32,668 nucleotides of DNA from Planctomycetota bacterium (GTDB lineage: Bacteria > Planctomycetota > Planctomycetia > Pirellulales > PLA5), in contig QEVJ01000060.1 of assembly GCA_003576845.1 (NCBI GenBank), positions 1 through 32,668 on the forward strand. The letters run 5' to 3'. The position numbers and the translations under genes are program-made. Below are positions 9,103 through 32,102 of the stretch, piece after piece. The number at the start of each line of letters is the position of its first letter. Positions within the stretch are counted from its first letter, which is position 1. The notes beneath the pieces are model-generated. The model was not told the DNA's origin and ran no database searches. It worked only from the letters and a program-made list of their open reading frames with translations.

Positions 9103-9143
9103 CGATCGATCAGAGATGAGCGATGAGTGAAGCGCATCGCTGC

Positions 9144-9191
9144 TGCCCACTGCCCACTTCTCCTGCCCACTTCCCCCCGCCCACTGCCCAC
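9144..9191 (+). repeat. Degenerate 7-base tandem array abutting hemB start
   Basis: Units of the form tgcccac occur at 9144-9150, 9151-9157, 9164-9170 and 9185-9191, with variants ttccccc (9171) and cgcccac (9178); one 6-base spacer breaks phase at 9158. The array stops one base before the hemB ATG at 9193, so the usual Shine-Dalgarno position is pyrimidine-rich repeat. Immediately upstream (9103-9130) is another loosely 7-periodic stretch rich in gatgag. Confidence 0.8.
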
Positions 9192-10201: not shown

Positions 10202-10389
10202 TCACCACAGAGGACACCGAGGGCACGGAGAAGCGGCGATGAAAATAATGAATGATGACTGATGAACGACAAGTGATGAACAATCCATACGGTGCGAGCA
10301 TTTTTTTGCTCATCGTTCATCGCTCATTCGTCATCAATCATCACTCATCACTTGCATTTCCTCTGTGCCCTCGGTGTCCTCTGTGGTGA
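10202..10389. repeat. Composite inverted repeat: 9-base-period ends enclosing 7-base-period arrays
   Basis: The outer 25 bases at 10202-10226 (starting tcaccacagaggacaccg) are matched perfectly, in inverse orientation, by 10365-10389. Within each end the sequence has a 9-base period (cacagagga / caccgaggg). Inside the ends are 7-base arrays: aNtgatg-type units at 10244-10285, and on the other side catcgtt, catcgct, cattcgt, catcaat, catcact, catcact at 10311-10352. A small hairpin (gagca/tgctc around a T run) lies at 10296-10311. The element fills most of the gap between hemB and the radical SAM gene. Confidence 0.85.
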
Positions 10390-14440: not shown

Positions 14441-14796
14441 GTCGATTACTTAAGCACAGAGGCCCCAGCGCGGCCGGTGGCCGCAACCAAAAACGAGAAT
14501 GGTTCGTTAAACGCAGAGGACGCAGAGGGCGCAGAGGTGGCGCAGAGTAGATTCCATGAGAACTCATCGACGCTTGGCGCCTCAGGAAACTGCAAGGTAC
14601 ACGTCTCGCGACAAACCATCGCCGTCCCCTCTGCCCTTCCTCCGCGTCCTCTGCGTCCTCCGCGTTTAACGAACACGCCCAAATCTTCGCAAGTATGCAA
14701 AATCCTCCGCGTTTGTAGTACAGAGGACGAGCACAGAGGGGCACGGCGACAATGCAAGTGATGAATGGTGATTGATGAGCGATGATTGATGACCTA
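14441..14796. repeat. Repeat-filled gap between phosphatase and HD gene
   Basis: No gene is supported in 14424-14904. The gap begins with gtcgattacttaa (14441-14453), which recurs in inverse orientation at 26460-26472. An inverted repeat spans 14502-14674: gttcgttaaacgc plus 9-base units (cgcagagga, cgcagaggg) on the left, matched on the right by gcgtttaacgaac and ctctgcgtcct-type units. A third block at 14718-14796 resembles one half of the 10202-10389 element: cagagg/gcac sequence, then aatgcaagtgatg and 7-base units agtgatg, aatggtg, attgatg, agcgatg, attgatg (14757-14791). Confidence 0.8.
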
Positions 14797-16659: not shown

Positions 16660-16754
16660 GGCCCGCAAAAAACTCGGGCCAAAGCCGCTCCGGAACCGCC
16701 TCACCCGGAGCGAATCCCAAATCCCATATCCCGAATCCCGATCCGCGATCCCTA
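16660..16754. terminator. Hairpins and 7-base array between convergent mdh and mscL
   Basis: Two stems are visible: ggcccg (16660-16665) with cgggcc (16675-16680), and cgctccgg (16686-16693) with ccggagcg (16705-16712). They lie between convergent genes and could end transcription on both strands, though no clean U run follows. A 7-base array follows directly: atcccaa, atcccat, atcccga, atcccga (16714-16741). Its complement is the gggattc heptamer seen at 23412-23439. Confidence 0.5.
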
Positions 16755-19354: not shown

Positions 19355-19392
19355 CCCTCGCCGCTCGCCCCGAACCCCGCGCCCCTCGCCCC
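19355..19392 (+). repeat. 7-base tandem array abutting the isomerase start
   Basis: Consecutive heptamers ccctcgc, cgctcgc, cccgaac, cccgcgc and ccctcgc, then ccc, run without a gap up to the base before the ATG at 19393. The region where a Shine-Dalgarno would lie is therefore all pyrimidine-rich repeat. The complementary heptamer (ggggcga type) occurs at 26269-26296. Confidence 0.8.
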
Positions 19393-22470: not shown

Positions 22471-23412
22471 ATGTCTGCCGTTCATTTCGCCCCGCGGCGC
22501 GCGTATTCCTGTCTGTTGTTTGTTGTTGCGGCATGGGCACAGGTGGCGGCGACCGCGGCGCCGGCTGTCGCGCGCGATCCGGATCACCTCGTGTTCTTGT
22601 GGCCCGACGGCGCGCCCGGCGCGAAGGGGACGGCCGACGGCGACCGGCCGGAATTGTCCGCGTACCTCGCTGCGGGCGATAAGAACTCCGGGGCAGGCGT
22701 CGTCGTCTGTCCAGGCGGCGGCTACGGGCATCTGGCGGTGGATCACGAAGGCAAGCAAATCGCCGACTGGTTCAACTCGATCGGCGTCTCGGCGTTCGTG
22801 CTCAAATATCGTCATCGCGCGAGCGGCGCAGGTTACGGTCATCCGGCGCCGCTCGACGACGCGCAGCGGGCGATTCGCCTCGCGCGCAGCAAAGCCGCCG
22901 ATTGGAAAGTCGACCCCAAGCGGATCGGCGTCATGGGATTTTCCGCCGGCGGGCATCTCGCTTCCACCGCCGCGACCCACTTCGACGACGGTAAAGCCGA
23001 TGCGCCCGACCCGATCGATCGCCAGGGTTGCCGGCCCGATTTTGCGATCCTATGCTACGCGGTCATCACGCTCGACGATGCTTTCACCCACCAAGGCTCG
23101 AAGAAGAACCTGTTGGGCGCCGAGCCGGACCCGAAACTCGTCGAACTCCTTTCGAACGAGAAGCAAGTCACCGAAAAAACGCCGCCGACGTTTCTGTGGA
23201 GCACCGGCGACGATGGCGCCGTGCCGGTCGAGAACAGCGTGCAGTTCTATCTCGCTTGCCGTAAGGCGAAAGTGCCGGCCGAGTTGCACGTGTACGAGCA
23301 CGGACCGCACGGCGTGGGGCTCGGCAAGAATCTTCCGGCCGTGTCCGTCTGGTCCGATCAACTCGCGGCCTGGCTGAAGCACCGCGGAATTCTGACAGGG
23401 GCTGGGGGCTAG
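22471..23412 (+). CDS. Secreted alpha/beta hydrolase (acetyl-xylan-esterase-like)
   Basis: The product is 313 residues from the ATG at 22471. An N-terminal signal peptide is likely (SCLLFVVAAWAQVAATAAPAVA), which places it in the periplasm or outside. The fold is that of small esterase/lipase enzymes. It has an oxyanion-hole motif PGGGYGHLA (81-89), nucleophile Ser158 in GFSAGGH, an acidic residue in TGDDGAVPVENS (Asp247/Asp248) and His280 in EHGPHGVGL. In planctomycetes relatives are often annotated as xylanase or acetyl-esterase type, acting on polysaccharide esters. The substrate here is an inference. The stop codon overlaps the start of a gggattc tandem array, and the last residues (GILTGAGG) may be affected by it. 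Confidence 0.9.
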   Translation: MSAVHFAPRRAYSCLLFVVAAWAQVAATAAPAVARDPDHLVFLWPDGAPGAKGTADGDRPELSAYLAAGDKNSGAGVVVCPGGGYGHLAVDHEGKQIADWFNSIGVSAFVLKYRHRASGAGYGHPAPLDDAQRAIRLARSKAADWKVDPKRIGVMGFSAGGHLASTAATHFDDGKADAPDPIDRQGCRPDFAILCYAVITLDDAFTHQGSKKNLLGAEPDPKLVELLSNEKQVTEKTPPTFLWSTGDDGAVPVENSVQFYLACRKAKVPAELHVYEHGPHGVGLGKNLPAVSVWSDQLAAWLKHRGILTGAGG

Positions 23413-23439
23413 GGATTCGGGATTCGGGATTCGGGATTC
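23412..23439. repeat. Perfect 7-base tandem repeat, gggattc x4
   Basis: Four exact copies of gggattc start at the last base of the hydrolase stop codon. The complementary heptamer occurs at 16728-16741. Confidence 0.9.
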
Positions 23440-23466
23440 GGCAAGCGCCTGCCGCATTCGCCGTAC

Positions 23467-25391: not shown

Positions 25392-26228
25392 ATGGCAATC
25401 CGCCGATTTCGCGACTTTTGGGACGCCTTCTTCCACGCGCCGCTCCGCCGCGCGGCCGAGGAGCAGCGGGCGCACGTCGCGGCGGCTTCCGGACCCGATT
25501 GGCACGTGGCCGTCGTCCTGGTCACAGCCGCATTGATGCTGACAGTGCAACGCTACGTGTTCCGCTCCGGCAACGTGGGCATGGCGCTCGACGTGCTCGC
25601 CGACGTGATGGATGCGTCGGCCCACGCGCGACTTGCGGAGCTCGCCAACGCGCCGGAGAACTCCATGCTCGCCAGCCTGATCTATTGGGCGTTCGGACAA
25701 TTCGTCGTGTACGTCGCCGGCCCGGCGCTGGTCATCAAGCTGTTGTTCCGCCAGCGGCTCGCGGATTACGGGGCGAAACTGCGCGAGATGTTCACGTGCG
25801 CCTGGGCGTATCTCTTGATGGCCGCAGTCATGCTCCCGGGCGTGTGGTTCGCGTCGACGCGGGAGAGCTTTCTGGATACCTACCCGTTCTACCGGCTCGC
25901 CGAGGAAGAGCCGCTCTGGCCGCGGTTCTTGATCTGGGAGCTGTGCTACGCGATTCAATTCGTGTCGCTCGAGTTCTTCTTCCGCGGATTCCTGCTCCAC
26001 GGCACGCGGCGGCGGTTCGGGGCATACTCCATCTACGCGATGATGGTCCCCTATTGCATGATCCATTTCGGCAAACCGCCGCTCGAAACGCTCGGCGCGA
26101 TTGCCGCCGGCATCGTCCTCGGCTTCATGAGTCTCAAGACGCGGTCGATCTGGATGGGCGCAGCGCTGCACATTTGCGTCGCCTGGTCGATGGACGCGGC
26201 GGCGCTGTGGCGAACGGGCAGGATTTAG
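25392..26228 (+). CDS. CPBP-family (Abi/CAAX-protease-like) membrane protein
   Basis: The 278-residue product has about six to eight hydrophobic segments. It carries the CPBP intramembrane protease signature in its C-terminal half: SLEFFFRGFLLHG (Glu194, Arg198), YCMIHFGKP (His225) and AALHICVAW (His260). The usual motif is Glu-Glu-x-x-x-Arg; here the first glutamate is Leu193, which may alter or weaken protease activity. Family members cleave membrane or prenylated proteins, or protect against bacteriocins. The target here is unknown. The start at 25392 has no obvious Shine-Dalgarno. Confidence 0.85.
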   Translation: MAIRRFRDFWDAFFHAPLRRAAEEQRAHVAAASGPDWHVAVVLVTAALMLTVQRYVFRSGNVGMALDVLADVMDASAHARLAELANAPENSMLASLIYWAFGQFVVYVAGPALVIKLLFRQRLADYGAKLREMFTCAWAYLLMAAVMLPGVWFASTRESFLDTYPFYRLAEEEPLWPRFLIWELCYAIQFVSLEFFFRGFLLHGTRRRFGAYSIYAMMVPYCMIHFGKPPLETLGAIAAGIVLGFMSLKTRSIWMGAALHICVAWSMDAAALWRTGRI

Positions 26229-26240
26229 GCGGGAGGACCG

Positions 26241-26472
26241 AGGATTGAGGATTGAGGATCGAGGATTGAGGGGCGAGGGGCGAGGGGCGAGGGACGCGTC
26301 TACCGCGTGGCACTGGGCGAGCCCATGCCCCGTCGCGATAATGACGGTCGTCTTATGAAAACATAGGCACTGAGGCGCGGACGAATACAAACGCAAAATG
26401 AACAATGAAACACATCCTCTCCGTGTGCCTCTGTGCTTATCCTCTGTGTGCCTCTGCGTTTAAGTAATCGAC
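26241..26472. repeat. Repeat-filled gap: 7-base array, palindrome and 9-base-type block
   Basis: No gene is supported in 26229-26546. Eight consecutive heptamers run from 26241 to 26296 (aggattg, aggattg, aggatcg, aggattg, aggggcg x3, agggacg). A palindrome follows at 26309-26329 (ggcactgggc / gcccatgcc, one base short of perfect). Bases 26412-26459 carry cctctgtg/cctctgcg-type units, complementary to the cacagagg blocks elsewhere. The block ends with ttaagtaatcgac (26460-26472), the reverse complement of 14441-14453. Confidence 0.8.
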
Positions 26473-30782: not shown

Positions 30783-32102
30783 TCAGCCGATCTGCGGCAG
30801 CTCGTACCCGCGGCGGTGCTCGCGGCCGAGGAGCTTGTTGGCGGCCGCGTCGTCGAAGGTCTCGGTCGCGGCGTCGAGGCGGAGCCGCTTGCCGGTCCGC
30901 CAGGCGATGTGCCCGGCGTGGCACATGGCGCTGCTGACGTGTCCGGAATAAAGTTCCTGGTTGAGCGAATCGCGCTTGCGGCTGCGCATCGCATCGAGAA
31001 AGTTGCGGACGTGAGCTTGTTGGGCCGCGCTTAAGTCGCTCGCGCCTTGCTTGATGAGATTGCCGGCCGCGTCGAACGCCTTCCACGACGAGTTGGTCAA
31101 CATCAGCGTGCCGTTCTCGCCGTAGAGCACCGCGCCCTCGGTCGCGCCGAACAGCTTGGGCTTCGACCAGAGCCGCATTTCGTATTGCAGCACCTTGCCC
31201 GGCCACTCGTAACTCACCAGCAGCGTATCCGGCCACTGCTGGTGGTCGTCGGTGAAGAACAACTTGCCGCCGGCGCAGGAGACGGCCTCGGGCAGCGTGT
31301 CGAGTCCCATTGCATAGCGGCAAAAGTCGATCCGGTGGACGCCGTCGTTGCCGAGGTCGCCCGTCCCGTAGTCGAACAGCCATCGCCACGCGCCGCCGAG
31401 CACGATTTCGGCGTTGTACGGCCGCTCGGCAACGGGACCTTGCCAGATGTCGTAATCGAGCGTGGCCGGCGGCGTGCCGTCCTTGCCGAGATGGATTTCG
31501 CGATTGCGGTCGGTTTCCCACGCTCGCCCGAACAGCACCTTGCCGAGCGCGCCGCTGCGAACGAACTCGGCCGCTTCGCTAAGGAATGCGGCGCTGCGAA
31601 TTTGCGTGCCGACCTGGACCATCCGCTCGTGCTTGCGGGCGATCGCGACGGCCGTCTTGCCTTCGGCGATGTTGTGGCTTGCCGGTTTTTCGACGAACAC
31701 GTCCTTGCCTGCCTGGCACCCGTAGATCGTGAGCAGCGCGTGCCAGTGATCCGGCGTGGCGACGACGAAGGCGTCGATCGAGTCGTCGGCGAGCAGATCG
31801 CGGAAGTCGCGGACGAGCTTCGGCTCGAGGCCGGTCCGCTGCTTCATTTCCGCGCCGCGCTGCTGGCGAACCGGTTCGTTGACGTCGCAAATGTGCGTCA
31901 CGATGCAGTCCGGTTCGGCGGCGAAGCTCTGCATGACCGAGTTTCCTCGGCCGCGCACGCCGATGCATGCGACGCGAATCTTGTCGCTGGCCGCAACGGC
32001 CCGGCGGGGCGCGGCCGATGCGAGCGTCGCGGCGATGCCCGATGCAGCGATGCCCGATGCGGCGGTGTGCTTGAGGAACTCGCGGCGCGTGTCGTGAGAC
32101 AT
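30783..32102 (-). CDS. Tat-exported Gfo/Idh/MocA-family oxidoreductase
   Basis: The 439-residue product has a twin-arginine signal (TRREFLKHTAAS, Arg6-Arg7), then an Ala-rich hydrophobic stretch, so export of a folded, cofactor-bound protein is likely. The nucleotide-binding fold starts KIRVACIGVRGRGNS (41-55). The family motif VEKPASHN places Lys139-Pro140, and the C-terminal domain has GAWRWLFDYGTGDLGNDGVHRID with the usual Asp/His. Members oxidise or reduce sugars and related compounds with NAD(P). Such Tat-exported versions are abundant in planctomycetes, and the substrate is unknown. GAGG six bases before the ATG at 32102 supports the start. The signal-peptide core contains a duplicated 15-base unit (32032-32061). 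Confidence 0.93.
   Translation of the reverse strand: MSHDTRREFLKHTAASGIAASGIAATLASAAPRRAVAASDKIRVACIGVRGRGNSVMQSFAAEPDCIVTHICDVNEPVRQQRGAEMKQRTGLEPKLVRDFRDLLADDSIDAFVVATPDHWHALLTIYGCQAGKDVFVEKPASHNIAEGKTAVAIARKHERMVQVGTQIRSAAFLSEAAEFVRSGALGKVLFGRAWETDRNREIHLGKDGTPPATLDYDIWQGPVAERPYNAEIVLGGAWRWLFDYGTGDLGNDGVHRIDFCRYAMGLDTLPEAVSCAGGKLFFTDDHQQWPDTLLVSYEWPGKVLQYEMRLWSKPKLFGATEGAVLYGENGTLMLTNSSWKAFDAAGNLIKQGASDLSAAQQAHVRNFLDAMRSRKRDSLNQELYSGHVSSAMCHAGHIAWRTGKRLRLDAATETFDDAAANKLLGREHRRGYELPQIG
32032..32061. repeat. 15-base tandem duplication in a Tat signal peptide
   Basis: Two adjacent copies (gcgatgcccgatgca and gcgatgcccgatgcg) encode the doubled Ser-Gly-Ile-Ala-Ala stretch in the hydrophobic core of the oxidoreductase signal peptide. 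Confidence 0.85.

Follow-up and report, generated by a model that had tools for sequence, protein, structure and literature searches.

Results

A gene-less nested hairpin lies between hemB and a radical-SAM gene

The window analysed here is the whole of contig C4 (QEVJ01000060.1; 32,668 nucleotides) of a 7.05-Mb Planctomycetota genome (GCA_003576845.1; 289 contigs, 99% complete). Between its hemB gene (PF00490, delta-aminolevulinic acid dehydratase) and a radical-SAM gene (PF04055), a gene-less hairpin of 188 bp is situated at 10202–10389 (Table 1). In this composite, TCACCACAGAGGACACCGAGGGCAC (10202–10226) is exactly reverse-complementary to 10365–10389, so that the perfect 25-base inverted repeat described in the original prediction, with 9-base units around two opposed heptamer arrays, was recovered to the letter. 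The wider outer arms show 84% pairing across 44 nt and are built from CRCNGAG cores spaced 9 bp, while the opposed heptamer arrays (TGATGAN) inside them run from 10244 to 10266 and from 10308 to 10349. Moreover, CRCNGAGNNCRCNGAG (allowing at most one mismatch) was matched 11 times vs. 2.74 expected and TGATGANYGATGA 10 times vs. 0.23 expected, with none of 100 shuffles reaching either count, and 7, 9 and their multiples were the only locally common periods.

As RNA, the composite folds at –116.3 kcal/mol (z-score of –14.1, with none of 200 shuffles equally stable), i.e., far better than chance, which answers the proposed check for secondary structure; folded as DNA, it reached a z-score of –10.4. 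An Rfam scan of the window returned no family and no rRNA match, and a search for a terminator or promoter at the composite found none. The empty terminator search agrees with the earlier view that this is a composite design and not a standard terminator.

Table 1. Positions of the composite and of further array features in the window
Feature	Position	Strand	Basis
Whole composite, gene-less nested element	10202..10389	.	Inverted repeat, arm pairing, fold; flanks PF00490 / PF04055
Outer left arm, three CRCNGAG cores, period 9, GxxExxY type	10202..10231	+	Core and period shared with the L032 arms (GxxExxY gene)
Outer right arm, inverted copy of the left	10360..10389	-	Arm pairing, motif excess over shuffles
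Inner left heptamer array, TGATGAN	10239..10282	+	Period scan, shuffles; limits by eye
Inner right heptamer array including junction GGAAATGCAAGTGATGA, which recurs at other loci	10306..10361	-	Period scan, shuffles, genome-wide loci
Outer end of second composite (TTAAGCACAGAGG), ahead of inserted unit	14450..14462	+	Three-way alignment (C8, C115 copies)
Inserted unit splitting left arm of second composite, holds nonamer element; copies on C8, C115	14463..14719	.	Three-way alignment
Nonamer element of CGCAGAGG kind, two arms, gene-less	14502..14674	.	Arm pairing, shuffles
Remainder of split arm and inner TGATGAN array; right half lost	14720..14796	+	Period scan, three-way alignment
Decayed nonamer element: right arm 26412–26461, weak left arm ~26366–26384	26366..26461	.	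Left arm by eye only
Lone GGGATTC heptamer array	23412..23441	+	Unit as in arms of sister-species four-helix-bundle element L045
Heptamer arrays GAGGATT, GAGGGGC	26220..26293	+	GAGGATT unit shared with four-helix-bundle element L036

Related blocks had been predicted elsewhere in the window. The half-copy at 14718–14796 is indeed present, with an outer arm that starts at ~14450 and is split by an insert carrying the block at 14502–14674, which was itself confirmed as a related 9-base block with inverted arms (87% pairing). For 26412–26459 the prediction held in part: the cores are those of the composite, but their spacing is ~10 and ~13 instead of 9. The larger repeated unit at 14463–14719, which recurs at ~90.5 kb of contig C8 and at ~14.1 kb of contig C115, has non-array borders, contains a nonamer element and is located inside the arm of another element; perhaps it represents a third kind of mobile element.

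Both repeat kinds recur across the genome, alone and joined

Genome-wide, the nonamer pattern yielded 213 matches vs. 8 for a backward control, and the TGATGAN pattern 140 vs. 4 for its control. The 30 TGATGAN loci correspond to 18 distinct places, 10 within nonamer arms and 8 outside them. A period-7 array was situated just inside the arm at 15 of 24 distinct nonamer places (vs. 41 of 960 control pieces), and just outside the arm at none of the 24. The possibility that both repeat types exist independently and were joined by chance was therefore borne out only in that each also occurs alone; the joined design itself, for which a genome-wide search had been suggested, recurs far above chance. 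Only counts are given here: a chance figure of 3.7e-17 for the composites was set aside since its nonamer pattern was stricter than the one behind the 10 of 18 places, and a 42-bp lag scan (threshold 0.7) was left aside as too coarse.

The joint between nonamers and heptamers has a recurring form, GGARATGCAAGTGATGA, and an AATGAAG-kind array can replace TGATGAN as the inner array at joined loci. The window's nest at 14.4 kb recurs on C8 and C115, with the likeness stopping at the outer arms, and a triple nest is common to contigs C38 and C184. The 36-bp arm CGCAGAGGGCGCAGAGGTCTCGCAGAGGACGCAGAG is shared by a gene-bearing element (L032) and the gene-less nest on C184. Entire nests are thus found at unrelated positions, and the composite is a design that recurs and is spread as one unit. 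Comparison with a sister species (G001) gave no present/absent pair of the window element and was uninformative on it, because synteny breaks at the window-element sites and the intergenic DNA is saturated. At ~1380–1700 of another locus of this genome (L108; C8, 79.8 kb), a cluster of arms was observed in which four different heptamer arrays, of the GGGGTCA, GGATTCG, TCATCAC and CCTCGAC types, follow each other in a row.

The repeat period follows the enclosed gene family

Two protein families, GxxExxY (PF13366) and the four-helix-bundle family PF05635, were chosen for testing on grounds of resemblance. In this genome, all four GxxExxY genes adjoin inverted arrays of ~8–9 bp units (L034 being cut by a contig end), and all seven PF05635 genes are located between inverted arrays, with 7-bp units except for L040 (~15 bp). 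None of these seven lies on C4, and no S23/IVP gene is present inside the window.

The arm survey covered 66 loci of PF05635 and 113 of GxxExxY, taken from this genome, other members of its order, and many phyla including archaea, with the arm defined as the best inverted pair within 330 bp and the flanks moved 700 bp outward serving as control. Loci with a flank shorter than 200 bp (5 of 66 and 6 of 113, respectively) were excluded. The relatives surveyed were the best 80 of 579, with one locus set drawing on 50 of those 80 genomes, and the loci of each genome were its best matches, so the survey leans to intact genes. The cut for arms was placed at 28, the top three of 144 shifted-flank controls scoring 28, 28, and 33; shifted flanks replaced a locus-swapping null, which was dropped because GxxExxY arms are alike across loci.

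Arms were found at 55 of the 61 usable PF05635 loci (six had no arm pair) and at 93 of the 107 usable GxxExxY loci (14 had none). Among the armed PF05635 loci, the period was 7 or 14 in 50, 8–11 in three (L065, L273, and L281), another value in one, and unclear in one, while the armed GxxExxY loci had a period of 8–11 in 83 cases and of 7 in none (one other, nine unclear). When only loci clearly assigned to either period class are counted, this association (50:3 vs. 0:83) has a Fisher p-value of ~5e-34 when loci are taken as independent, although related ones are not, and strongly suggests a rule in which a 7-bp period goes with PF05635 and an 8–11-bp period with GxxExxY. Two or more CRCNRA[GT] cores were present in 80 of the 93 GxxExxY arms and in 0 of the 55 PF05635 arms. 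GxxExxY arms combine a fixed core (i.e., CRCNRAG or CRCNRAT, frequently preceded by TTAACC), conserved across phyla, with variable spacing (8 bp in 48 instances, 9 bp in 58, 10 bp in 24, and 11 bp in 9). PF05635 arms combine fixed spacing with variable sequence, with 45 distinct heptamers among 55 elements, and the paired arms of one element match despite the differences between elements.

Each period thus marks a separate element family with its own gene elsewhere, which could not be seen in the letters available to the original prediction. A common plan is apparent in both, i.e., one small gene between inverted arms that are each a tandem array: family A combines the GxxExxY nuclease gene with arms that have a conserved core at 8–11 bp, and family B the four-helix-bundle gene with arms in which one of many heptamers recurs every 7 bp exactly. 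Gene-carrying elements of the two families have median spans of 472 and 498 bp, and the genes inside elements are PF13366 or PF05635 only, with no transposase among them. Across 57 genomes of the order, strict nonamer arrays averaged 14.5 per genome in the 34 with a GxxExxY gene vs. 1.9 in the 23 without (Mann-Whitney p-value of 0.001), the exceptions being three of those 23 genomes with at least five nonamer arrays.

The outer arms of the composite have the hallmarks of a MITE-like derivative, being short, gene-less, and inverted at the ends, with a gene-bearing relative (L032) in the same genome and the same 9-bp CRCNGAG grammar. For the inner TGATGAN arms, no gene-bearing relative was found among the 66 PF05635 loci, at which no TGATGAN or AATGAAG arms were seen apart from one weak match (L061), and it is from period and pairing alone that we infer the TGATGAN and AATGAAG arrays to belong to family B.

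Some individual loci deserve mention. Two four-helix-bundle elements (L273 and L281) have clear 8- and 9-bp periods and may reveal how a period changes, and L040 (1468–1821) is located amid a run of tRNA genes; an Rfam scan of 20 of the 66 PF05635 loci found no rRNA and only the tRNAs near L040. At L220, 130-nt arms on both sides of a GxxExxY gene hold a second inverted pair, i.e., nesting beyond planctomycetes.

A predicted Cas4-like nuclease and a four-helix bundle

In GxxExxY proteins, the name-giving E, a D, and an ExK are invariant in all 14 (A1) and all 40 (A3) aligned members. A sequence search against solved structures found no match. A structural model of a Nostoc member (pLDDT of 93.6) best matched 4ic1 (Z-score of 10.0; Foldseek E-value of 4e-3), i.e., SSO0001, which we take to be a Cas4 protein, followed by 3ijm (Z-score of 8.2) and the Holliday-junction resolvase 1gef (Z-score of 7.5). 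Z-scores below 8 may reflect merely a common arrangement. QxxxY is a motif of RecB/Cas4 nucleases. The model places the D...ExK site in the right fold, and GxxExxY is accordingly predicted to be a PD-(D/E)XK nuclease with a Cas4-like fold.

PF05635 proteins matched structures 2gsc and 2rld (five chains each) and, weakly, the NCBIfam model of Avd. To our knowledge, this four-helix bundle has no known catalytic site. In the accessible portions of PMC8934634 and PMC8700078, the proteins are named without mention of repeats. Avd, whose homology to 2gsc has been noted, is reported to be essential to retrohoming by diversity-generating retroelements (PMC10053308, as far as the part consulted goes). 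This resemblance to PF05635 and the weak Avd matches would fit 7-bp elements that move as RNA, with a reverse transcriptase acting in trans. However, the distribution of PF00078 reverse transcriptases disfavours such a route, which we regard as very improbable: they are missing from 19 of 37 relatives with PF05635 genes, including the present genome (0 matches), and present in 11 of 20 relatives without PF05635.

The elements could also owe their mobility to an unrelated transposase or recombinase, with the two small proteins as mere passengers, e.g., regulators or defence proteins. Catalytic residues are indeed absent from the four-helix-bundle proteins, gene-less copies far outnumber genes (213 nonamer matches vs. 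4 genes), and GxxExxY has a weak Cas4 match in PADLOC (3e-4). Nevertheless, the strict link between period and family is hard to account for if the protein is unconnected to the ends, and gene-carrying genomes contain more arrays, so that we consider passengers unlikely, if the least unlikely of the alternatives weighed here.

Occupied and empty sites of four-helix-bundle elements

Conjugative plasmids of Nostocales contain identical operon junctions that are either occupied by a four-helix-bundle element or empty, with sharp borders at the arrays. Site 1 is occupied in Trichormus variabilis plasmid C and in Scytonema, and empty in Fremyella (Microchaete) diplosiphon and Nostoc carneum, with ~98% identical flanks; among the matches listed, six records (H44–H49) have the shorter (empty) form. 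Site 2 is occupied in three Nostoc plasmids and empty in five, site 3 is occupied in one and empty in five, and site 4, which has a less sharp border, is occupied in Calothrix and empty in three plasmids. No array is present at the empty sites, indicating that the arms arrive with the element. Since the empty state is the commoner one at sites 2 and 3, it was read as ancestral; possibly, however, the empty sites are precise deletions from an occupied state.

The 5-bp sequences GTAAT (site 1) and TTCTA (site 2) flank the element on either side and occur a single time where the site is empty, providing candidate duplications at two of the four plasmid sites, while sites 3 and 4 give no clear one. 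No excess of target-site duplications was detected across 57 PF05635 loci (3.49 vs. 3.51 by chance), and only a slight one across 94 GxxExxY loci. On pNPM1, a gene-less heptamer hairpin is situated inside a four-helix-bundle gene and is missing from two close copies; gene-less heptamer forms seem to insert too. Overall, the comparison of sites argues strongly that four-helix-bundle elements are mobile.

These sites also bear on two explanations that involve no mobile element. Microsatellite-like slippage, with arrays paired by chance inversion, does act on them to some extent, as indicated by a 14-bp difference in heptamer array length between near-identical plasmids. Slippage alone was nevertheless rejected because the empty sites hold no arrays; with only two periods and their multiples locally common, arms that match within but differ between elements, and a core conserved across phyla, there is next to no chance that it explains the arrays. 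The second explanation holds the hairpins to be structured host RNAs or processing sites (e.g., RNase III hairpins or attenuators) that are kept for regulation and dispersed like 23S intervening sequences. The high stability of the RNA hairpin agrees with it, as does the Coxiella intervening sequence, which RNase III cuts out and in which heptameric repeats adjoin the S23 gene (PMC4990558, in the part available). In contrast, the window contains no Rfam family, and presence/absence differences between near-identical plasmids, one of them an insertion inside a gene, resemble mobility, which makes a purely regulatory origin quite improbable, though less so than either a reverse transcriptase in trans or slippage. 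Regulatory and mobile views can be compatible after insertion.

In Nostoc pC052_E, a decaying element (L290, 1202–1335) has kept nothing but its left heptamer arm and the 5′ portion of the four-helix-bundle gene. Another Nostoc plasmid (L287, 2501–2869) has a four-helix-bundle element between its beta and alpha ribonucleotide reductase genes, pointing in the opposite direction to both.

Turnover of GxxExxY elements

For family A, a site between conserved genes was searched in 16 Dolichospermum genomes. Eight, the query's own included, match the query across the whole element at 82–100%, and alignment of four of these eight revealed two variants, one with CGCAGAG arms and the other with CGCAAAG arms. 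In three genomes, a GxxExxY element of reverse orientation, ~70% alike, lies between flanks 90–96% identical to those of the query; one genome has a short arm hairpin alone, and four are without a simple flank pair. GxxExxY elements thus turn over between conserved flanks, with the arms travelling along with the gene, and no arm-free empty site for this family was seen among the 16 genomes. The GxxExxY tree mixes phyla (21 changes, vs. a minimum of 11 and a shuffled mean of 26.8) but was set aside as proof of transfer because most of its branches are weak. Neither protein matched any of 50,697 phage records.

Discussion

As far as sequence comparison goes, the data document that period follows gene family, that numerous copies lack a gene, that family B has sites both with and without an element, that family A elements have turned over between conserved flanks, and that elements nest, with entire nests spreading as units. 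The composite at 10202–10389 is probably a gene-less, nested derivative of these two families of very small mobile elements.

As a possible mechanism, each protein would recognise its own arms, family A via their sequence and family B via their spacing or hairpin, each heptamer perhaps being matched by one subunit of a pentamer. The family A nuclease might cut its own array or an arm cruciform, after which repair of the break would insert a copy of the element in a homing-like manner; such cut-and-repair copying would explain both the replacement of elements between arms and the nesting inside arms. For family B, our best guess is that the pentamer reads some five steps of 7 bp along an extruded hairpin, with the cutting left to a host nuclease. 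Gene-less copies would move in trans, and the arms of existing elements would be favoured targets, giving rise to nests such as 10202–10389; the window composite itself would be either what is left of such nests or a form of them mobilised in trans.

In its widest form, the proposal is about as likely to be right as wrong: a new class of minimal DNA elements, reaching from bacteria into archaea, would move without known transposase, integrase, or reverse transcriptase by means of one small protein and inverted tandem-array ends that act as a ruler (i.e., exactly 7 bp for a pentameric bundle and 8–11 bp for a Cas4-like nuclease), and intergenic heptamer repeats and the intervening sequences of rRNA would represent the debris and the specialised descendants of this class. 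For now, we would class the elements with the known small mobile elements that have inverted ends and copies lacking a gene, and have not filed them as categorically new, since we infer the role of the proteins in movement.

Several known systems invite comparison, the cyanobacterial STRR repeats among them. In REP/RAYT, where a palindromic repeat goes with a Y1 tyrosine transposase, and in MITE/IS pairs, one copy bears a gene and numerous others share its inverted ends but have none, a likeness that extends to the present elements; unlike in those pairs, no transposase is among the genes found, and each end is a tandem array with a period characteristic of the family. Homing endonuclease elements, Cas4, and casposons resemble them in that a small nuclease, here with a Cas4-like fold, lies between ends that it may recognise, but homing elements have an intron or intein host, which is lacking here, and do not share the inverted tandem-array ends. 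The link to diversity-generating retroelements lies in Avd as a four-helix-bundle homologue (PMC10053308, in part), although PF05635 elements also occur in genomes without reverse transcriptase.

Intervening sequences in 23S rRNA (Coxiella, Leptospira, Xanthomonas) share with family B a PF05635 protein, complementary ends, a span of ~430 nt, and a sporadic spread. Complementary ends forming a stem are found in the window composite and the surveyed loci, and an S23/IVP gene is present by selection inside the family B loci. The elements described here differ in being located between ordinary genes, in being numerous, and in having gene-less copies and occupied as well as empty sites. In Coxiella, three or two GACAGAT heptamers adjoin the S23 gene on its upstream side, and the portion of that paper at hand calls the origin of the intervening sequence unclear and recalls old proposals of present or past mobility (PMC4990558). 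Intergenic heptamer arrays, some as inverted pairs, have likewise been described for GGGAATC and GGGGATT in cyanobacteria and Xanthomonas, generally without association with mobile elements and, according to the sections available, with no detailed earlier literature on heptameric repeats (PMC4692102), and for TAACTGA, whose origin was left open in the available text (PMC4679880). Unlike the arrays studied here, these repeats are not linked to a gene in those parts of the two papers. Our search, which left most subscription papers and preprints outside, found no literature joining either gene family to inverted tandem-array ends.

If true, the proposal would provide one explanation for intergenic heptamer arrays, for two abundant 'hypothetical' protein families, and for the origin of 23S rRNA intervening sequences, whose mobility has long been suspected. 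It also makes testable the question whether a bundle without known catalytic site, or a 125-residue nuclease, can move DNA with tandem-repeat ends; if either suffices, few known mobile elements would be smaller. In practice, element ends would then serve as helpful marks in genome annotation, in which they cause false gene starts and assembly breaks. In the window, the long reading frame of hemB has a CTGCCCA-type heptamer array inside its start (9143–9191), and translation probably begins at the ATG near 9190; an array can thus give rise to a false N-terminus. Finally, further period-7 arrays in the window, at 16711–16752, 19355–19392, and 32033–32060, resemble lone arms.
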